From Aquamicrobium sp. (GTDB taxonomy: Bacteria > Pseudomonadota > Alphaproteobacteria > Rhizobiales > Rhizobiaceae): a stretch of 64,000 nt of DNA. Below, in pieces: positions 4,298 to 48,989 of this stretch. Within the stretch, counting starts at the first letter, position 1. Every line of letters begins with the position of its first letter. The notes under the pieces were generated by a model. That model searched no databases. It was not told the DNA's origin and saw only the letters and a program-made list of their open reading frames with translations. Position numbers and translations under genes: made by a program. Location: NCBI GenBank assembly GCA_019739225.1, contig JAHHDT010000001.1, positions 1 to 64,000 of the forward strand, read 5' to 3'.

Positions 4298-4893
4298 GGC
4301 TTATTCTGCTCGGGCCGCCGGGAGCGGGGAAGGGGACGCAGGCCCAGAGGCTTGTCGAGAAACACGGCATACCGCAGCTTTCCACGGGGGACATGCTGCG
4401 CGCCGCCGTCGCAAACGGCACCGAGGTCGGCAAGCGCGCGAAAGCCGTGATGGATGCCGGTGAGCTCGTCTCCGACGACATCGTCAATGCCATCGTGGCA
4501 GAGCGTATCGACCAGCCCGACTGCGCCAATGGCTTCATTCTGGATGGCTATCCGCGCACGCTCGCCCAGGCGGATGCCGTGGAGACGATGCTCGCCAAGC
4601 GCGACTTGAACCTGAATGTCGCCATCGAGCTCGTCGTCGACGACAAGGCGCTGGTCGGCCGGATCGTCAAGCGCGCCGAGGACGCAAAGGCCGCGGGTCA
4701 GCCGGTGCGCAAGGACGACAACCCCGAGGTGTTCGACGAGCGGCTGCGCGAGTACTACAAGAAGACTGCGCCGCTGATCGGCTACTACTATGCCAAGGGG
4801 CTGCTGAAGGGTGTCGACGGCATGGCCGACATCGATGCGGTAACCAGGCAGATCGACGCGCTGCTGGACCGGAAGGCGGTGGCAGCGCAATAA
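4294..4893 (+). CDS. adk: Adenylate kinase
   Basis: Adenylate kinase catalyses ATP + AMP to 2 ADP in the cytosol and sets adenylate energy charge. The 199-residue product has the P-loop [12 protein letters not shown] (residues about 7-18), the AMP-binding STGDMLR segment, the DGYPRT motif and the LID region around [14 protein letters not shown]. The LID is the short form without zinc-binding cysteines, as in most alphaproteobacteria. The ATG overlaps the secY stop by four bases, the classical secY-adk linkage. Confidence 0.98.
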
Positions 4894-5091
4894 GTCCCGC
4901 CAGGTGTTGACTGTTGCCGCTTTCTGGATTAAAGCGGCCCGTCTTCCATCCAGGCACGGTGCCGCCGGTCCTTCCGGACCGAGCGGTCGCTTTGATGAGA
5001 AATCCCCGCAAGGGCCGGCCTCCACCGGACGCGGGAAAACAAGAACGCGCCGGTTCGACGTGGACGTCGGCCGGCCTACATGGAGAAGAGA

Positions 5092-5460
5092 ATGGCCCGT
5101 ATAGCAGGCGTCAATATCCCGACCAACAAGCGCGTCGTCATCGCGCTGCAGTACATTCACGGCATCGGCGCGAAGTTCGCTTCCGAAATCGTCGAGAAAG
5201 TGGGCATCCCGGCCGACCGCCGCGTGAACCAGCTCACCGACGCAGAGGTGCTGCAGATCCGCGAAGCCATCGACCGCGATTACCACGTCGAGGGTGACCT
5301 GCGCCGCGAAGTCTCGATGAACATCAAGCGCCTGATGGATCTCGGCTGCTACCGCGGCCTGCGCCATCGTCGTTCGCTGCCGGTCCGCGGCCAGCGCACG
5401 CACACCAACGCCCGTACCCGCAAGGGCCCGGCCAAGGCGATTGCTGGCAAGAAGAAGTAA
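5092..5460 (+). CDS. rpsM: 30S ribosomal protein S13
   Basis: S13 sits in the head of the 30S subunit and forms intersubunit bridges while contacting the P-site tRNA. The 122-residue product begins [15 protein letters not shown] and ends in the basic tail [28 protein letters not shown], both family hallmarks. ATG 5092 was preferred to the in-frame ATG at 5080, because MARIAGV is the conserved start. The 198-bp gap after adk holds no convincing gene; infA and rpmJ, present here in some bacteria, are absent. Confidence 0.97.
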
Positions 5461-5606
5461 TTCGAGGGGTAGGCAAGCCCGCGCGGCGTAGCGATTTCGG
5501 ATAGCGGCCAGCCGCTTTCCTTATGCCACGCGCCGATTGCCCTACTGCCATCGAGGTGTAGCCGCTGGCACTACGGCGGCGTTGATATCAACTGGAAGGA
5601 AAATAA

Positions 5607-5996
5607 ATGGCCAAGGAAGCCGGGCGTATTCGCCGTCGCGAACGCAAGAACATCTCGTCGGGCGTTGCGCACGTCAACTCGACGTTCAACAACACGATGA
5701 TCACCATCACCGACGCGCAGGGAAACGCGATTGCCTGGTCGTCGGCCGGTGCGCAGGGCTTCAAGGGGTCGCGCAAGTCGACGCCGTTCGCCGCGCAGGT
5801 CGCTGCCGAGGACGTCGCCAAGAAGGCGCAGGACCACGGCATGCGCATGCTCGAGGTCGAGGTTTGCGGGCCCGGTTCCGGTCGCGAGTCGGCGCTGCGC
5901 GCTCTGCAGGCCGCCGGCTTCACCATCACCTCGATCCGCGACGTAACGCCGATCCCGCACAATGGCTGCCGTCCGCGCAAGAAGCGCCGCGTCTAG
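5607..5996 (+). CDS. rpsK: 30S ribosomal protein S11
   Basis: S11 lies on the 30S platform and helps form the E-site and the Shine-Dalgarno cleft. The 129-residue protein has the conserved core [18 protein letters not shown], the region [22 protein letters not shown], and the C-terminal [27 protein letters not shown] leader precedes the ATG. It follows rpsM after 146 bp and precedes rpoA, as usual for the alphaproteobacterial alpha operon, which lacks rpsD at this point. Confidence 0.98.
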
Positions 5997-6101
5997 GCCG
6001 AAGCAACATACCCTGACGAGCTCCATCGCGGCGCTCCTCTCTCGGTTTCCAGATTTGCCCGCCACGATTGGATGGTGGCGGGAAACGGAAGGAAAACCTG
6101 A

Positions 6102-7112
6102 ATGATCCAGAAAAACTGGCAGGAACTGATCAAGCCCAACAAGATCGAGTTCTCCTCCAAGGGCAAGACGCTCACCACTCTGGTGGCAGAGCCTCTGGAG
6201 CGTGGCTACGGCCTGACGCTCGGCAACGCGCTGCGCCGCGTGCTTCTGTCCTCGCTGCGCGGCGCTGCCGTGACGGCGGTGCAGATCGACGGCGTGCTGC
6301 ATGAATTCTCCTCGATCGCCGGCGTGCGCGAGGATGTGACCGACATCGTACTCAACATTAAGGAAATCGCCATCCGCATGGAAGGCGACGGCCCCAAGCG
6401 CATGGTCGTGCGCAAGCAGGGCCCGGGTGTGGTCACGGCCGGCGACATCCAGACTGTAGGCGACGTCGAGATCCTGAACCCCGACCACGTGATCTGTACG
6501 CTCGATGAGGGCGCGGAGATCCGCATGGAGTTCACGGTCGACACCGGCAAGGGTTACGTGCCCGCCGAGCGCAACCGCGCCGAGGATGCGCCGATCGGGC
6601 TCATCCCGGTCGACAGCCTCTACTCGCCGGTCAAGAAGGTCTCCTACAAGGTCGAGAACACCCGCGAGGGCCAGGTTCTCGATTATGACAAGCTGACCAT
6701 GACCATTGAGACTAACGGTGCCGTCACTGGCGAGGATGCCGTGGCGTTCGCCGCGCGCATCCTGCAGGACCAGCTCGGCCTCTTCGTCAACTTCGACGAG
6801 CCGCAGAAGGAAGTTGCTTCGGAGCAGGTTACCGAGCTCGCCTTCAACCCGGCGCTGCTCAAGAAGGTCGACGAGCTGGAGCTTTCGGTCCGTTCGGCCA
6901 ACTGCCTGAAGAACGACAACATCGTCTACATCGGCGACCTGATCCAGAAGACGGAAGCCGAGATGCTGCGTACGCCGAACTTCGGCCGCAAGTCGCTCAA
7001 CGAGATCAAGGAAGTTCTGGCCGCCATGGGCCTTCACCTCGGAATGGAGGTGCAGGACTGGCCGCCGGAGAACATCGAAGACCTCGCAAAACGCTACGAA
7101 GATCAATACTGA
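6102..7112 (+). CDS. rpoA: DNA-directed RNA polymerase alpha subunit
   Basis: The alpha subunit dimerises to nucleate RNA polymerase assembly; its C-terminal domain contacts UP elements and activators. The 336-residue product has the N-terminal assembly domain ([36 protein letters not shown]) and the C-terminal domain with [15 protein letters not shown] and [21 protein letters not shown], which form the helix-hairpin-helix DNA-binding surface. The length is normal. GGAAGGAAAACCTGA precedes the ATG. It lies between rpsK and rplQ. Confidence 0.98.
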
Positions 7113-41402: not shown

Positions 41403-41825
41403 TCAGGTGCTGGGCAGGTTTGCCGCGCGCAGGCTGACCGACACGATGCGGTAGACGCCGTCGTCCTGCAGGTCCAGCACGTAGAGCGCCTCGTAATCCT
41501 TGCCGTCGGGGCCAAGCACGAACACGCTCTGCGCGACGCGCCCGGGCGCCAGCGCCTCGAACTTGCCGAAGGCGTAGTTGCGCGGGCGGTGCACCGGGGC
41601 GTAGCCGTTGCGCACCATGGCCATGAAGCCGCCCGGCGTCGGGTACATCTGCCTGATATTGGGTGCGGCATAGGAATAGGCGGCCTGATCGTCGCCGCCG
41701 AGGAATGCCTTCAACTGCCCCTCGATCGTCTGCTGCGCCGCCTTGGCGGCGTCGTCGGCCAGCGCGGCCGGTACCCAGCCGACCGCAAGCACCAAGACGA
41801 GACAAAGACGATGTATCGTTTTCAT
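41403..41825 (-). CDS. DUF4864 exported protein
   Basis: The product is 140 residues: a signal peptide (MKTIHRLCLVLVLAVGWVPAALA) followed by a DUF4864-like domain with AKAAQQTIEGQLKAFLGGDDQAAYSYAAPNIRQMYPTPGGFMAMVRNGYAPVHRP and the C-terminal DGKDYEALYVLDLQDDGVYRIVSVSL. The fold belongs to the NTF2-like group; the function is unknown. ATG 41825 gives the best signal peptide; ATG 41837 (MEEVMKT) is an alternative. It converges on tgt, with a 7-bp gap between stops. The 235 bp upstream lead to the divergent ATP-grasp operon. Confidence 0.82.
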   Translation of the reverse strand: MKTIHRLCLVLVLAVGWVPAALADDAAKAAQQTIEGQLKAFLGGDDQAAYSYAAPNIRQMYPTPGGFMAMVRNGYAPVHRPRNYAFGKFEALAPGRVAQSVFVLGPDGKDYEALYVLDLQDDGVYRIVSVSLRAANLPST

Positions 41826-42060
41826 GACCTCCTCCATTGTTATCGGCAGCCTGAATCCGACAGCCTCTGGAAGATACGCAGTCAAAGCTTCGACGGTTTC
41901 ATGCCCGCGCGCAATAGCGGCTGCACGGCACGTCGGCAGTTGGCTGTGACGACTGCCGGTTTGTTGGGCATCGGCCCAAATCGGTGCCGACGTCACGATC
42001 AAATGACGGTTTCCCCTTGATTTTACGCTCGCGGCTCTTTGTTATGGAGGGCAGAGGAGT

Positions 42061-43479
42061 ATGCGCTTGGTTGCATTCGATGAAATGCGCCCGCACGGAA
42101 ACGGGCTGAGACAACCCTACGCTGGCTATGACGGCTGGCTGCAGACGCAAGACCCCGCCCGCCTAACCGAAAAGATGGAGGATGCCGAGCGCGTCTTCAG
42201 GCGCACCGGCATCACCTTTGCCGTGTACGGCCAGGAGGAGGCAGCCGAACGCCTCATTCCCTTCGACATTGTGCCTCGCATCATTTCGGGCGCGGAGTGG
42301 CGCCGGCTCACCCAGGGTATCGAGCAGCGCGTTCAGGCGCTGAACGCATTTCTGGACGACATCTACCATCGCCAGGAGATCCTGCGCGCCGGGCGCATCC
42401 CGCGCGAGCTGATTGCGGCCAACGAGGCCTTTCTGCCGGAGATGATCGGCGTGCGCCCGCCGGCGGGCGTCTATACCCACATCATCGGCGTCGACATCGT
42501 GCGCACCAGCGAGAACGAGTTCTTCGTGCTGGAGGACAATGCGCGCACGCCGTCCGGCGTCTCGTACATGATCGAGAACCGGGAAACGATGATGCAGCTC
42601 TTTCCGGAGCTGTTCCAGGCGGTCAAGGTGCGGCCGGTCGAAAACTACCCGCAGCTCCTGCGCCAGTCGCTCTCGGCGGTTGCGCCGCGCGGAACGGAAG
42701 GATCTCCCACGGTCGCGGTGCTGACCCCCGGCAGCTACAATTCGGCCTATTTCGAGCATGCCTTCCTCGCCGACCAGATGGGTGTCGAGCTGGTCGAGGG
42801 GCACGACCTTCGGGTCGTCGACGGTCATGTCGCGATGCGCACGACGCAGGGCTACAAGCGCATCGACGTGCTCTACCGCCGCGTCGACGACGACTATCTC
42901 GACCCGCTGACGTTCCGCCCGGATTCGGCGCTTGGCGTGCCGGGCATCATGGACGTATTCCGCGCCGGCAACATCACCATCGCCAACGCGCCGGGCACTG
43001 GCATCGCCGACGATAAGGCGATCTATTCCTACATGCCCGAGATCGTGGAGTTCTATACGGGCCGCAAGGCGATCCTCGGCAACATCCCGACATGGCGCTG
43101 CTCCGAGGCCGACAGCCTGAAATACGTGCTCGAACATCTTGAGGAGCTGGTCGTGAAGGAGGTTCACGGCTCCGGCGGCTACGGCATGCTGGTCGGCCCG
43201 GCCGCGTCGAAGGCGGAGCGCGAAACCTTCGCGGCCAAGCTCAAGGCCAAGCCTTCCAACTACATCGCCCAGCCGACGCTGGCGCTTTCGACATGCCCGA
43301 TCCTGACCGAGAAGGGGCTGGCACCCCGCCATGTCGACCTGCGGCCCTTCGTCCTGGTCTCCGACCGCATCCGCATTGTGCCCGGCGGGCTCACGCGGGT
43401 GGCGTTGAAGGAAGGGTCGCTGGTGGTGAATTCGTCGCAGGGTGGCGGGACGAAGGACACATGGGTTCTCGATGACTAG
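42061..43479 (+). CDS. Circularly permuted ATP-grasp protein of the Anbu operon
   Basis: This ATP-grasp class (DUF404/DUF407) is predicted to form amide or peptide bonds; its substrate is unknown. The 472-residue product begins RLVAFDEMRPHGNGLRQPY, then has RTGITFAVYG, LIPFDIVPRIISGAEW, QALNAFLDDIYHRQEILRAGRIPRELI, DIVRTSENEFFVLEDNARTPSGVSYMIENR, EFYTGRKAILGNIPTWRC and the ATP-site VVKEVHGSGGYGMLVGP near residues 361-377. The length is typical. An AGAGGAG lies directly before the ATG. It is the first gene of a four-gene operon with the alpha-E protein, a transglutaminase-like protease and Anbu, a set repeatedly found together in proteobacteria. Confidence 0.93.
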   Translation: MRLVAFDEMRPHGNGLRQPYAGYDGWLQTQDPARLTEKMEDAERVFRRTGITFAVYGQEEAAERLIPFDIVPRIISGAEWRRLTQGIEQRVQALNAFLDDIYHRQEILRAGRIPRELIAANEAFLPEMIGVRPPAGVYTHIIGVDIVRTSENEFFVLEDNARTPSGVSYMIENRETMMQLFPELFQAVKVRPVENYPQLLRQSLSAVAPRGTEGSPTVAVLTPGSYNSAYFEHAFLADQMGVELVEGHDLRVVDGHVAMRTTQGYKRIDVLYRRVDDDYLDPLTFRPDSALGVPGIMDVFRAGNITIANAPGTGIADDKAIYSYMPEIVEFYTGRKAILGNIPTWRCSEADSLKYVLEHLEELVVKEVHGSGGYGMLVGPAASKAERETFAAKLKAKPSNYIAQPTLALSTCPILTEKGLAPRHVDLRPFVLVSDRIRIVPGGLTRVALKEGSLVVNSSQGGGTKDTWVLDD

Positions 43480-43500
43480 GAATGGGGAGGGAGCCTGACA

Positions 43501-44442
43501 GTGCTGCTCGGTCGCACCGCAAACGGCCTCTACTGGATGACGCGCTATATCGAGCGGGTCGAGAACATGGCGCGCATCGTCGACGCCGGGCTGCGGCTGG
43601 CGCTGACACGCACCGACTCTTCGGCCGACGAGTGGGCGTCGGTCGTGATGAGCGCTGGCGCCGACCAGGCTTTTCGCGAGCGCCATAGCGAATATACGGC
43701 CGACACTGTCTCGGACTTCCTCCTGCGAGACGTGACCAACCCGTCGAGCGTGCTCTCGTCCATCGAGACGGCGCGCACCAATGCGCGCATGGTGCGTACC
43801 GCACTGACGCGGGAAACCTGGGAAAGCATCAACGAAGCGTGGATGACATGCCGGCGCATGCTGGCCGCCCCGATCGACCAGCGCGAGCTACCCAAGATCC
43901 TCGACGCCATCAAGCGTGAGACGGCGCTGATCCGCGGCGCGTTCCACGGCACGATGCTGCGCAACGAGATATTCGACTTCGCCCAGCTCGGCATCTATGT
44001 CGAGCGGGCTGACAACACCGCCCGCATCCTCGATGTCAAATATTACGTGCTTCTTCCGTCGATCTCCTGGGTGGGGTCGTCGCTGGACAACTACCAGTGG
44101 GAATCGATCCTGCGCTCTGTTTCGGCCCACCGGTCCTATCGATGGGTGTACGAGGCCGACTACAAGCCCACCAACATCGCCGATTTCCTCATCCTCAACA
44201 GGCGCATGCCGCGATCGCTGGCCTATTGCTACCATATGATCGCGGAGAGCCTGGACTTCCTTGCCGACGACTATGGCGAGCGCCACGTCTGCCACGGCAC
44301 GCTGGCTGACATCAGGGCGAAGCTGAAGCCGGGCAGCATTGCGTCCATCTTCGACGGCGGGCTGCACGAATTCCTGCGTGACTTCATTCGCAGCAACAAC
44401 AGGCTGGGCAACGAGGTTGCCGAGAATTACCGGTTCTTCTGA
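43501..44442 (+). CDS. Alpha-E domain protein (DUF403)
   Basis: Alpha-E proteins are all-helical, rich in conserved Glu/Arg, and occur almost only beside circularly permuted ATP-grasp and transglutaminase genes; they may scaffold the ligase. The 313-residue product has MLLGRTANGLYWMTRYIERVENMARIVDAGLRLAL with the family's ANGLYWMxRYIER signature, then GTMLRNEIFDFAQLGIYVERADNTARILDVKYYVLLPS and NRRMPRSLAYCYHMIAESL. It starts with GTG 21 bp after the ATP-grasp gene. Its stop overlaps the next ATG by one base (TGATG), so translation is coupled. Confidence 0.94.
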   Translation: MLLGRTANGLYWMTRYIERVENMARIVDAGLRLALTRTDSSADEWASVVMSAGADQAFRERHSEYTADTVSDFLLRDVTNPSSVLSSIETARTNARMVRTALTRETWESINEAWMTCRRMLAAPIDQRELPKILDAIKRETALIRGAFHGTMLRNEIFDFAQLGIYVERADNTARILDVKYYVLLPSISWVGSSLDNYQWESILRSVSAHRSYRWVYEADYKPTNIADFLILNRRMPRSLAYCYHMIAESLDFLADDYGERHVCHGTLADIRAKLKPGSIASIFDGGLHEFLRDFIRSNNRLGNEVAENYRFF

Positions 44443-45236
44443 TGCTGCTCAAGATTTCCCACCGAACGGTCTATTCCTACGACGCGCCAGTGCCTTACGC
44501 GCTGCAGCGCATCCGCCTGTCGCCGCCAAGTGGTGGGATACAGACGGTTCATGCGTGGTCGCTGGAGGTGACCGGCGCGACGGAAGAGGTGCGCTTCTTC
44601 GACCAGTTCGGCAATGACACCCGCCTGCTGAGCGTTTCCGGCGACGCCCAGGCAATCGAAATCGCGGTCCGCGGCGAGGTGGAGGTGCGCGATGCGTCAG
44701 GTGTTACGGGGCCGCATTCGGGTTTCGCGCCGCTGTGGCTGTTCGAACGCCCGACATCGCTGACGACGGCCGGAGCGCAGATCCGGGAAATCGCCGGGAG
44801 CATCGCGGGCGGGGAGGATCTTGGGCGGCTGCACGCCCTGTCCGCCGCCGTCCGCGACAGGGTCGCCTATACGGTGGGCGCAACCGATGCCGCGACGAGC
44901 GCCGAGGATGCCGTCTCGCAGGGCGAGGGGGTCTGCCAGGACCATTCGCACATCTTCCTCGCCGCGGCGCGCAGCCTGGGTTTTCCGGCCCGTTACGTCA
45001 GCGGCTACCTGCGCCTCGACGACACGGTCGAGCAGGTCGCGACCCATGCGTGGGCCGAAGCGCACCTGGCGGGGCTCGGCTGGGTCGGCTTCGACGTTTC
45101 CAACGGCATTTCGCCCGACGCGCGCTATGTGCGGCTCGCGACCGGGCGCGACTATCGCGATGCGATGCCGGTTTCCGGCATAAGGCTGGGCCAGGCGCAG
45201 GAACAGCTTGAAGTTCACATCACTGTCGAGCAGTAA
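44442..45236 (+). CDS. Transglutaminase-like cysteine protease of the Anbu operon
   Basis: The product is a 264-residue papain-fold protein. The N-terminal beta region (LLKISHRTVYSYDAPVPYALQRIRLSP) is typical of bacterial transglutaminase-like proteins. The catalytic triad is Cys165 (GEGVCQDHSHIFLAAARSLGFPARYVSGY), His202 (THAWAEAHL) and Asp218 (WVGFDVSNG). Family members are predicted proteases or amidases, and here one may process the product of the ATP-grasp ligase. The start overlaps the alpha-E stop by one base. Anbu follows 33 bp later. Confidence 0.93.
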   Translation: MLLKISHRTVYSYDAPVPYALQRIRLSPPSGGIQTVHAWSLEVTGATEEVRFFDQFGNDTRLLSVSGDAQAIEIAVRGEVEVRDASGVTGPHSGFAPLWLFERPTSLTTAGAQIREIAGSIAGGEDLGRLHALSAAVRDRVAYTVGATDAATSAEDAVSQGEGVCQDHSHIFLAAARSLGFPARYVSGYLRLDDTVEQVATHAWAEAHLAGLGWVGFDVSNGISPDARYVRLATGRDYRDAMPVSGIRLGQAQEQLEVHITVEQ

Positions 45237-45269
45237 TCAGGTTTGCTCAAACTCCGAAGTGCCTGATTC

Positions 45270-45998
45270 ATGACCTATTGCGTGGGCCTCAAGATCGACC
45301 GCGGTCTCGTCTTCATGTCGGACACGCGCACCAATGCCGGGGTCGACTCGATCTCGACCTTCCGCAAGATGTATACGTGGGAGATGCCGGGAGAACGCGT
45401 GCTGGTACTGCTCGCGGCCGGAAACCTGGCCACCACGCAGGCGGTTGTGAGCCTGCTCGACGAGCGCTCCAAGGCGCCGGAGGACCGGGAACCGTCGATC
45501 CTCAAGACGCCGTCGATGTACCAGACCGCGCGGCTGATCGGCGATACGGTGAAGGAGGTGATCTCCAGCTCCGCCCCGGTTGGCCAGAGCGCCGACGCCT
45601 TCGGCGCCTCCTTTATTCTGGGCGGGCAGATCAAGGGGACCGAGCCGCGGCTTTTCATGGTCTATCCGGAAGGCAATTTCATCGAGGTGAGCGATGACAC
45701 GCCGTTTTTCCAGATCGGCGAGACGAAATACGGCAAGCCGATCCTCGTTCGCGCCTACGACCAGTCCATGACCTTCGCCGAAACCGTCAAGCTGCTGATG
45801 GTGTCGTTCGATTCGACGGTGAAGTCGAACCTGTCGGTGGGCCTGCCTCTCGACCTGCTTTTCTACGAGCGGGATACGTTCGAGGTGACCTACAGAAAGC
45901 GCATCGGCGCCGACGATGCGTATTATCGCGAGATTTCCGATGGTTGGTCGGACGCGCTGAAGTCTGCGTTCAAGAGCTTGCCTGATTTCAAGGCCTGA
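45270..45998 (+). CDS. Anbu, proteasome-type protease
   Basis: Anbu (ancestral beta subunit) is a bacterial Ntn-hydrolase related to proteasome beta subunits and HslV. The 242-residue product begins MTYCVGLKIDRGLVFMSDTR; removal of Met would expose Thr as the nucleophile, with Asp18 and Lys33 (unprocessed numbering) as the expected active-site partners. DAFGASFILGGQIKG and SVGLPLDLLFYERDTFEV are family segments. It lacks a propeptide and has no regulatory ATPase nearby, unlike HslV. As last gene of the ATP-grasp/alpha-E/transglutaminase operon, it fits the known Anbu context. Physiological substrates are not established. Confidence 0.93.
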   Translation: MTYCVGLKIDRGLVFMSDTRTNAGVDSISTFRKMYTWEMPGERVLVLLAAGNLATTQAVVSLLDERSKAPEDREPSILKTPSMYQTARLIGDTVKEVISSSAPVGQSADAFGASFILGGQIKGTEPRLFMVYPEGNFIEVSDDTPFFQIGETKYGKPILVRAYDQSMTFAETVKLLMVSFDSTVKSNLSVGLPLDLLFYERDTFEVTYRKRIGADDAYYREISDGWSDALKSAFKSLPDFKA

Positions 45999-46025: not shown

Positions 46026-47627
46026 TCAGTCGATTTCCAGCCGTTCCGGCGGGCATGCCGGGATCAGGACCTGCCCTCCCGAGACGGACGCTGGTTGCAT
46101 GAAGTATTCGACCCCCGCCCACTCCACGCTCTCGGCACCGGGATTGCGGCTGTCGCCTTCGTCGATGCTGAAGAGGAAGTCTGTCGAAAGCCCGTCGGCC
46201 CACGTGTAGGAGTTGCCGCCCGCCTCCATCTCGAAGCGGGTGAATGTTTCGTTATCCGGACTGTACATATTGAAAGTCACGGCGTGGTCGCAGGCGTTTC
46301 GCAGCAGGAGCGTCCGGTCCTGCGGCAGAGGCTTGCCGGAGAAGTTGATCTTCCTGGCTGCCTCTAACGTCCGGCCGTCGCGGGCTGCCTTGATATGATC
46401 CAGGTCGCCTGACCCGAACAGCGCCCCGTGCGCGACGACCGCGTCGGGATCTGGCTCGCCTTCGGGCGGGCGGGCAAGGAAGTAGAAGCCGGCAAAAAGG
46501 TGTCCATTCTCGCCGGCGAACTTCAGGGCTCCGGCGTCCCCGACCTCGCAGTGGGAGAGGTCGACCTGCAGCGACCTGATCTCGCCGTCGGAGTCGATTT
46601 CCGGCGCTTCTACTGCCCAGTATCTGCATCCTTCAGCGGACTGCATCACGGTCTTCTGGATGTCCGCCACCCGATCGGCGATGACGAAGGGAGACGAATT
46701 CTTATCGCCGCCGAGGAATTCCCAGCCGGACCGGCCGGTTCGGTCGGTCACGCTCTCAGCGCCGGCCGGGGCCAGCCGGGCCATCGCGACCAGCATCCGC
46801 ACGCCGTCTTCGTGCTCCCAATAGTTCAATTCCGTGACGGGATAGGCGTCGGCGGAGACGTGGCCGTCCATCTCGCGGTTGTAATGAAACCACCCCGTCG
46901 GACGCTGCCCAGGCTCCAGGTTGTCGAAGCGCGAGCCTTCAAGACATCCGCTGTCGAATGCGGCCGCGTTGGGGCCGACGACAATGGCCTCACAGGCCGT
47001 GTAGCGGTTTGGTTTGTCGTGCGAATACACCACCAGAAGTCCTTGTCCGGCCGAAAGGCTGCCCGGCGTTACGAGGCGCATCGGCGCCTCTTGACCGGTT
47101 TGCCGCGCTGCCATGTTCTCTTTGGACATAGGACCTGTGTAGGGGCCGAATTGCTGATCGAGGTAGCTGTATGCCCCAATCACGATCACCAGCAGCAAGC
47201 TCAGAACCAAGAGCTTCTCGATGAAGGTTGTCCGTTCCTTGGTCTTCCGGTGCCGGGGTGGTTTCCCGGCGGCGGGAGCGGGGGCCGGGGTGGGGTCCGA
47301 CGATGCCTGCGGCGCTGCAGGAATCTCGCCTTCCGTTATCATGCTCAGCAGCAAGGCTGCCGCTGGAAGCCGTGTTCCTCTCGGCAGATGGGCGCTGCCC
47401 ACCCTGCCGTCGAGCGGTGACGAGACCTTGACCTCGCCTTTGGGTGTGTCCAGCAGCGCAATGATGTCGCCGCGAGCGACCCGGTGGTCGGCCCGTCCTT
47501 CCACCCAAAGCACCGTCATCGGATAGTATTTGGAATCCTCGGGAGTCCTGATGTCCGCCTTGCCCAACTGCCTTCCCCTCGGCACCACCCAATACGACCG
47601 ATAGTGGAATCTTGCCGTTGAGTCCAA
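46026..47627 (-). CDS. Membrane-anchored protein with an N-terminal lipoyl/biotinyl-like domain
   Basis: I do not recognise the whole protein (about 533 residues). Residues about 37-85 resemble a biotinyl/lipoyl domain: RGDIIALLDTPKGEVKVSSPLDGRV, with Lys63 where lipoyl domains carry the modified lysine. A Pro/Ala linker, a basic patch and one membrane helix (LLVLSLLLVIVIGAYSYL, about 139-156) follow. The large outer domain has six cysteines, suggesting disulfides. The start is uncertain: the longest frame opens with TTG 47627 without a good ribosome binding site, and a GTG around codons 14-15 is possible. It converges on anbu, 27 bp between stops. Confidence 0.65.
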   Translation of the reverse strand: MDSTARFHYRSYWVVPRGRQLGKADIRTPEDSKYYPMTVLWVEGRADHRVARGDIIALLDTPKGEVKVSSPLDGRVGSAHLPRGTRLPAAALLLSMITEGEIPAAPQASSDPTPAPAPAAGKPPRHRKTKERTTFIEKLLVLSLLLVIVIGAYSYLDQQFGPYTGPMSKENMAARQTGQEAPMRLVTPGSLSAGQGLLVVYSHDKPNRYTACEAIVVGPNAAAFDSGCLEGSRFDNLEPGQRPTGWFHYNREMDGHVSADAYPVTELNYWEHEDGVRMLVAMARLAPAGAESVTDRTGRSGWEFLGGDKNSSPFVIADRVADIQKTVMQSAEGCRYWAVEAPEIDSDGEIRSLQVDLSHCEVGDAGALKFAGENGHLFAGFYFLARPPEGEPDPDAVVAHGALFGSGDLDHIKAARDGRTLEAARKINFSGKPLPQDRTLLLRNACDHAVTFNMYSPDNETFTRFEMEAGGNSYTWADGLSTDFLFSIDEGDSRNPGAESVEWAGVEYFMQPASVSGGQVLIPACPPERLEID

Positions 47628-48913: not shown

Positions 48914-48989
48914 GAGCGCGTAGCTCAGTTGGTAGAGCAACTGACTTTTAATCAGTAGGTCCAGGGTTCGAGCCCCTGCGCGCTCACCA
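48914..48989 (+). tRNA. tRNA-Lys (anticodon TTT)
   Basis: A 76-base cloverleaf: acceptor GAGCGCG pairs with CGCGCTC, D-arm region GCTCAGTTGGTAGAGC, anticodon stem ACTGA/TCAGT with loop CTTTTAA (anticodon TTT at 48947-48949), T-arm GGGTTCGAGCCC around 48964, discriminator A and an encoded CCA (48987-48989). Confidence 0.97.

Follow-up and report, generated by a model that had tools for sequence, protein, structure and literature searches.

Anbu is a proteasome-type peptidase whose gene was published as the last member of a four-gene operon, after genes for an ATP-grasp ligase, an Alpha-E protein and a transglutaminase-like protein (TG) (PMC6376114). It assembles as an open ring, dodecameric to 14-meric, and two subtypes, referred to below as Anbu-1 and Anbu-2, have been described (PMC6376114, PMC5666114). 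Epoxomicin and MG132 bind the Pseudomonas aeruginosa enzyme, the former at Thr1 (PMC5666114). Here, we analyzed the same gene set at positions 42,061 to 45,998 of a 64,000-nucleotide stretch of Aquamicrobium sp. DNA (the window; contig JAHHDT010000001.1, positions 1 to 64,000, forward strand). As the operon was already published in this order, it is not new, and the window holds an intact copy of a known system. Our analysis adds that Anbu depends on the ATP-grasp gene and that TG is modular, along with an arginyltransferase-family (ATE) partner in Anbu-2 genomes and an Alpha-E protein that looks duplicated.

The four open reading frames (ORFs), all on the + strand, lie at 42061-43479, 43501-44442, 44442-45236 and 45270-45998, with gaps of 21, -1 and 33 bp; the coordinates and tight packing given in the original prediction were confirmed exactly. 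The first encodes a circularly permuted ATP-grasp ligase (CP_ATPgrasp_2, 472 aa; Pfam E 1e-167), matched near full length by 3n6x (E 1e-200), its sole sequence match in the PDB. It is followed by a 313-aa Alpha-E protein with a GTG start (Pfam E 5e-93) and ER motifs at E18-R19 and E168-R169, then by TG (264 aa; Transglut_core E 2e-22, Bact_transglu_N E 9e-19) with Cys165, His202 and Asp218, and finally by an Anbu of the Anbu-1 type (242 aa; Pfam Proteasome E 1e-8), an N-terminal nucleophile (Ntn) peptidase. Anbu begins Met-Thr, without a propeptide, and has D18 and K33 in place (Thr2, Asp18 and Lys33 correspond to Thr1/Asp17/Lys32). Only five distinct PDB sequences match it at E 0.001 (5loy, 5nyj, 5nyf, 5nyw and 5lox), all Anbu structures, with E values of 3e-66 to 1e-92. 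An NCBIfam scan of the four proteins gave no model above cut-off. The window's genome has one CP_ATPgrasp_2 match and one Transglut_core match, in each case the operon gene, and two Proteasome-family matches, Anbu and a gene on another contig that, judged by reading its sequence and without a model match, is presumably HslV.

Conservation of the gene set was explored in the best 80 of 162 related loci, giving 81 with the window (L numbers denote fetched loci and G numbers genomes). ATP-grasp, Alpha-E, TG and Anbu occur in order in 76 of the 80, far beyond chance, and the loss of synteny that would have spoken against a widely co-occurring set was not seen in these relatives. Two of the 76 are damaged, L011, a metagenome-assembled genome (MAG), having broken frames and L026 only part of ATP-grasp. 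The four exceptions are L018 and L047, which end at contig edges, and L038 (Jiella) and L077 (Aureimonas), which have no TG. Thr2, Asp18 and Lys33 of Anbu are present in 80 of 81 sequences, the one row that deviates at all three being taken to be the broken MAG; Cys165 and His202 of TG are found in 79/79 and Asp218 in 78/79. The catalytic residues are thus near-invariant and the active sites are not degenerate, in agreement with the earlier reading of an intact Anbu with Thr directly after Met. At the S1 position, where the window has Ala49, Thr or Ser is found in 73/81 sequences and Ala in 7/81. Protein distances of the four genes, computed without L011 and L026, correlate at 0.815-0.883, a descriptive figure only since the rows are related. 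Alignments were made from 42 of 79 Alpha-E loci (A1), 38 of 78 TG loci (A2) and 29 of 80 Anbu loci (A3), leaving out redundant, odd-length and Brucella-named or kin rows and others to limit alignment size. A second, divergent transglutaminase gene lies directly before ATP-grasp in nine Loktanella-group loci (L043, L046, L050, L053, L042, L044, L058, L059 and L061).

The original prediction had also raised a fifth conserved gene or a small peptide ORF nearby, and neither was found. No other neighbor family occurs in more than 12 of the 81 loci, with a clustering that recovered the known operon genes in 69 to 81 of 81 loci and so is not fully sensitive; in the commonest extra families (12/81), 11 of the 12 loci are named Brucella or Ochrobactrum and share a common chromosome block. 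Among 934 short ORFs in 251 stretches, none was conserved beyond one genus or clade, the largest sets (10, 10 and 9 loci) each being confined to one such group, and this survey found no conserved gene nearby for a small tag protein of the ubiquitin/Pup kind. The earlier interpretation is thus partly supported: the idea of a tag that is synthesized, attached or trimmed has a published counterpart, credited to Iyer et al. 2009 in PMC6376114 and PMC5666114, and its small-peptide version found no support in the survey.

The four genes are not equally inseparable. In a class sample of 144 alphaproteobacterial genomes, CP_ATPgrasp_2 is present in 59 and Anbu in 46; every one of the 46 Anbu genomes has CP_ATPgrasp_2, and Anbu is found in 0 of the 85 genomes without it. 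Anbu therefore depends on the ATP-grasp gene across these genomes. The laboratory species Caulobacter vibrioides also has CP_ATPgrasp_2. When the 50 Anbu places of this sample (window included) were sorted by hand, 21 were contiguous four-gene sets and 4 kept the usual order but had Anbu separated from TG by a gap (the contig of L109 does not reach ATP-grasp and Alpha-E). Another 6 have Alpha-E and Anbu without an intervening TG (in L137 a large TG-type frame lies nearby on the other strand), and 2 have Anbu and TG in convergent orientation (L113, and L149, which is at the end of a contig). Anbu-1 lies apart from the other operon genes in 7 (L148 at a contig edge, L145 adjoining a DUF2126/TG gene), 9 are Anbu-2, and 1 is a truncated Anbu-1-like frame (137 aa) in which Gly stands in place of Asp18 (G062; L120 6727-7140), probably a decayed copy. 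Apart from L170, which is cut by its contig end, every fetched locus has Alpha-E either fused to ATP-grasp or placed after it; second, fused ATP-grasp copies are mostly outside the fetched loci, and with many assemblies fragmented a few gene links may be hidden by contig ends. The constancy of the ATP-grasp/Alpha-E pair marks the ligase pair as the core and TG and Anbu as modules, which is at odds with the view of the four genes as one indivisible machine. On plasmid p2 of Azospirillum brasilense (L205 7001-7735), a species reported to have both Anbu subtypes (PMC5666114), Anbu has no operon partners in the stretch shown and is near ABC transporter, amidohydrolase and dihydropyrimidinase genes.

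A different partner was uncovered next to the ligase pair in Anbu-2 genomes. Thr2, Asp18 and Lys (at position 32 in these proteins) are retained in all nine divergent copies, which also have invariant arginines in the S1 region, in agreement with published Anbu-2, whose basic S1 pocket is thought to cut after acidic residues (PMC5666114). Anbu-2 has also been published from Bacteroidota, Planctomycetota, Verrucomicrobiota and deltaproteobacterial groups. A profile made from the nine copies (A5) had matches of E 1e-50 or better in 25 of the 387 genomes surveyed; G249, a weak match with a four-gene Anbu-1 locus (L179), was dropped, leaving 24 genomes. All 24 have ATE and ClpS, and 23 have CP_ATPgrasp_2 (not G319). 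ATE lies directly after Alpha-E, on the same strand and with a gap of -29 to 72 bp, in 22 of these 23 (the exception is G030), compared with 0 of 47 controls that have ATP-grasp and ATE without Anbu-2 (G012 has ATE nearby but convergent). Cases and controls were taken from different draws, of 387 and 144 genomes respectively; when only the 144-genome draw is counted, the figures are 8/9 and 0/47. When three of these ATE proteins were run against an NCBIfam arginyltransferase model, all passed. TG is in the fetched stretch of 0/22 ATE loci, so that TG and ATE never share the slot after Alpha-E, which is taken by one of them or by neither.

ATE and ClpS-ClpA are members of N-degron pathways, and phasins coat carbon-storage granules made under nitrogen limitation. 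In the 23 of 24 Anbu-2 loci examined (L114-L119, L121, L122, L153, L189 and L192-L204; the G211 locus, at a contig edge, was left out), Anbu-2 is divergent from clpS-clpA in 16 and from a phasin-query gene in 21 (exceptions L117 and L122), and a D-Ala-D-Ala carboxypeptidase gene follows it in 17. Six of the phasin-query proteins were checked and match Phasin_2. No published description of a link between Anbu and ATE or ClpS was found in a survey of titles and abstract openings, with Iyer et al. 2009 outside its coverage.

Shared ancestry weakens the case for a functional ATE link. An ATP-grasp tree of 88 rows (quick method, midpoint root), including 13 of the 81 window-type rows, has one side of 51 rows with all 42 sets having a co-directional Anbu and another of 37 rows with all 22 ATE sets and no co-directional Anbu. 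G022, G035, G036 and G144 combine an Anbu-1-type Anbu with an ATP-grasp from the ATE side, so ATP-grasp and Anbu subtypes correspond imperfectly. The ATE label requires 6 changes on this tree, 2 of them forced by well-supported branches, and a kin-corrected sign test gave a median p of 0.5, with low power from just 2 independent pairs; the Fisher p values for the link take no account of kinship. MotA-MotB-ATE occurs without the ligase pair in L190 and L191, suggesting that the pair was perhaps inserted beside ATE, or lost there. Of the 22 ATE loci, 16 have MotB within the stretch fetched; ATE still follows the pair in the 6 where MotB was not found, and across nine family labels, which is modest evidence of coupling. 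A single event retained through descent may underlie the ATE link, and common ancestry may explain the ATE/ClpS association; as the phasin (21/23) and carboxypeptidase (17/23) genes are at least as constant as clpS-clpA (16/23), inherited order is a real alternative. In view of L190 and L191, the tree changes, the weak kin-corrected test and these equally constant neighbors, we do not accept an N-degron link as proven. If the ATE link is taken as function, the ligase pair cooperates with protein-modifying enzymes.

Several published observations connect the operon to nitrogen. In Pseudomonas putida grown on nitrate compared with ammonium, PP_2685 (Anbu) and PP_2688 (ATP-grasp) have log2 values of 4.44 and 3.99, and the PP_2688 promoter is 3.7-fold up under nitrogen limitation (PMC8050072). 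I35_5080-83 of Burkholderia cenocepacia are among the NtrC/sigma-54 targets (PMC5491218), and in marine metagenomes the operon domains cluster with urea metabolism (PMC3597751). This makes nitrogen control likely in some lineages, and the window's copy may respond to nitrogen as well. Among the related loci, ureF-ureG lie beside the operon in four Loktanella loci (L043, L046, L050 and L053; about 4500-6750), before the second transglutaminase gene, and on the operon's other side in Hoeflea marina (L045); the L043 pair alone was checked by Pfam. A urease neighborhood was not retained as a general rule, being present in 5/80 loci from two lineages but with UreF within 20 kb of Anbu in none of the class sample's 46 Anbu genomes (32 of them contain UreF). 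For the alphaproteobacterial operon, control by sigma-54, though published for Burkholderia, was likewise rejected: a sigma-54 signal was found upstream of 6/76 operons against 9.6 expected by shuffling (105/842 for other genes), and none in the window. On an Acidithiobacillus caldus megaplasmid (L206 645-14714), ntrC, glnL, a PDC-sensor gene and Anbu are followed by genes for a large transglutaminase, ATP-grasp and Alpha-E, with insertion sequence elements.

Structure predictions bear on two of the proteins. Homology between the two halves of Alpha-E (hhalign E 2e-11, against 0.26 for a reversed control) gives the protein the appearance of a tandemly duplicated ER-motif unit. Its AlphaFold model (predicted local distance difference test score, pLDDT, 89; predicted template modeling score, pTM, 0.88) had no significant Foldseek match in the PDB (best E 0.42), and no PDB sequence scored better than E 0.43 in a profile search. 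Alpha-E may have a fold not yet solved, a single fold program on an all-helical protein being weak evidence. The TG model (pLDDT 94) is closest, over its length, to 3ISR, a putative cysteine protease of Cytophaga hutchinsonii, with a TM score of 0.77-0.78; transglutaminase 3 and arylamine N-acetyltransferases come further down. The Cys165-His202-Asp218 triad that had led to a second peptidase being proposed is real, and it signifies a transglutaminase/papain-like fold rather than a protease.

The reading we tentatively prefer is that of a module for protein tagging and turnover under nitrogen limitation. ATP-grasp with its constant partner Alpha-E would be an ATP-dependent amide-bond-forming ligase acting on proteins or peptides; the added group would be transferred or hydrolyzed by a second enzyme, in most cases TG, and the threonine peptidase Anbu would process the modified products. 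From its use under nitrogen scarcity, the likely purpose would be controlled protein turnover to recover nitrogen. We infer the ligation to protein, the nature of the tag, and the roles of TG and Anbu; a protein is favored as substrate because ATE, the alternative to TG after Alpha-E, belongs to a family that joins amino acids to protein N-termini. A number of observations weigh against this reading. ATP-grasp is found without Anbu in 13 of 59 class-sample genomes, TG is absent from 8 operons in all (the 6 of the class sample, L038 and L077), and neither the UreF nor the sigma-54 survey extends the nitrogen connection. The Anbu proteins of Yersinia bercovieri, P. aeruginosa and Hyphomicrobium did not cleave any of three proteasome substrates, no operon protein bound specifically to Anbu, and ATP-grasp was not stimulated by it (PMC6376114); no tag or substrate of the system is reported in the portions of PMC6376114 and PMC5666114 available to us. 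It is possible, if on balance unlikely, that ATP-grasp and Alpha-E instead build a peptide or polyamine amide storing nitrogen or redox equivalents, in the manner of glutathionylspermidine synthetase, and that TG and Anbu hydrolyze it. The nitrogen links and the lack of a conserved small tag ORF fit such a pathway, as do the name of 3n6x, "putative glutathionylspermidine synthase," and the ability of some Ntn hydrolases to cut amides other than peptide bonds (PMC6376114). It would be unusual, however, for a metabolite to be hydrolyzed by a threonine peptidase of 12-14 subunits whose S1 pocket resembles that of the proteasome and which reacts with epoxomicin (PMC5666114, PMC6376114). The ATE partner of Anbu-2 genomes, moreover, acts on proteins, judging by its family.

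The dependence of Anbu on ATP-grasp, with no Anbu lacking it among the 144 genomes, could also mean that Anbu is a plain nitrogen-starvation peptidase and that ATP-grasp and Alpha-E are its ATP-using activator rather than a ligase. This would suit an operon without an AAA+ gene, and the ATP-grasp of Y. bercovieri sets phosphate free from ATP and behaves in sedimentation as a large multimer, for which a 14-mer is the best fit (PMC6376114); yet Anbu and ATP-grasp neither bind nor stimulate each other (PMC6376114), and with the 13 ATP-grasp genomes that have no Anbu we consider this improbable. Slightly more doubtful still is a model that places the Anbu system in the bacterial N-degron pathway as one of its branches, the pair making acidic ends or tags, ATE, a tRNA-dependent N-terminal transferase encoded in one operon with the pair in Anbu-2 alphaproteobacteria, capping them or competing, ClpS/ClpA delivering and Anbu cutting, with TG replacing ATE and the pocket being amphiphilic in the Anbu-1 version. 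These roles were assigned because the Anbu-2 pocket is basic and thought to cleave after acidic residues and because bacterial ATE/Bpt recognizes acidic N-termini; the ancestry arguments given above tell against them. It is very improbable that the four genes have separate jobs and are linked by inherited order only. Anbu does lie apart from the other operon genes in 16/50 class-sample places (7 Anbu-1, 9 Anbu-2), in addition to the one truncated copy, but all genomes with a detached Anbu keep an ATP-grasp, G319 (Anbu-2, from the larger sample) alone being without. The module for protein tagging and turnover would matter beyond this locus: Anbu has been put forward as a relic of the earliest proteasome, and if the ligase pair does make a degradation tag, this would be another bacterial protein-tagging system. 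The TG/ATE partner swap that related genomes point to offers a way to test what the operon does.

The surroundings in the window set the operon apart. Upstream is a DUF4864 gene (41403-41825, - strand; Pfam) and downstream a gene for a 533-aa protein (46026-47627, - strand) that neither Pfam nor NCBIfam matches at E 0.001; as both genes run in the opposite direction, the operon is a self-contained unit, and its gaps are compatible with co-transcription of the four genes. A possible sigma-70-type promoter (CTTG ... TGTTATG; 42016..42046, + strand) was picked out by eye just upstream of the operon, where the element looks conserved in an alignment of five loci (window, L002, L009, L008 and L055); in a consensus promoter scan no site before the operon reached threshold. 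No AAA+ gene was found by Pfam among the four operon genes and the two flanking genes. The sole tRNA found by ARAGORN in the window, a tRNA-Lys, is at 48914-48989 (+).

Compared with known systems, Anbu has in common with HslV and the 20S proteasome the Ntn fold, the N-terminal Thr, Asp and Lys; unlike HslUV, the operon has no AAA+ unfoldase, and the gene read as HslV is separate in the same genome. The Burkholderia I35_5080-83 cluster (ATP-grasp, Alpha-E, TG-like and large TG-like) shares the ATP-grasp, Alpha-E and TG families and is nitrogen regulated, with no Anbu named in it in the available text of PMC5491218. Large TG proteins with DUF2126 occur in some Anbu genomes, whereas the window's genome has no further Transglut_core match. 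The genes of the bacterial N-degron pathway (ATE/Bpt, ClpS, ClpA) neighbor operon parts in Anbu-2 genomes only; the window's genome has the two on different contigs, ATE at G000:C4:65330-65728 and the operon on C1. With the Anbu-1 operon of Y. bercovieri and others, the window shares the four families, their order and the active-site residues, and it does not differ notably, the S1 residue here being Ala49. The suggestion that there is something special in the window's copy is thus not borne out, and this copy is an ordinary member of the Anbu-1 type.

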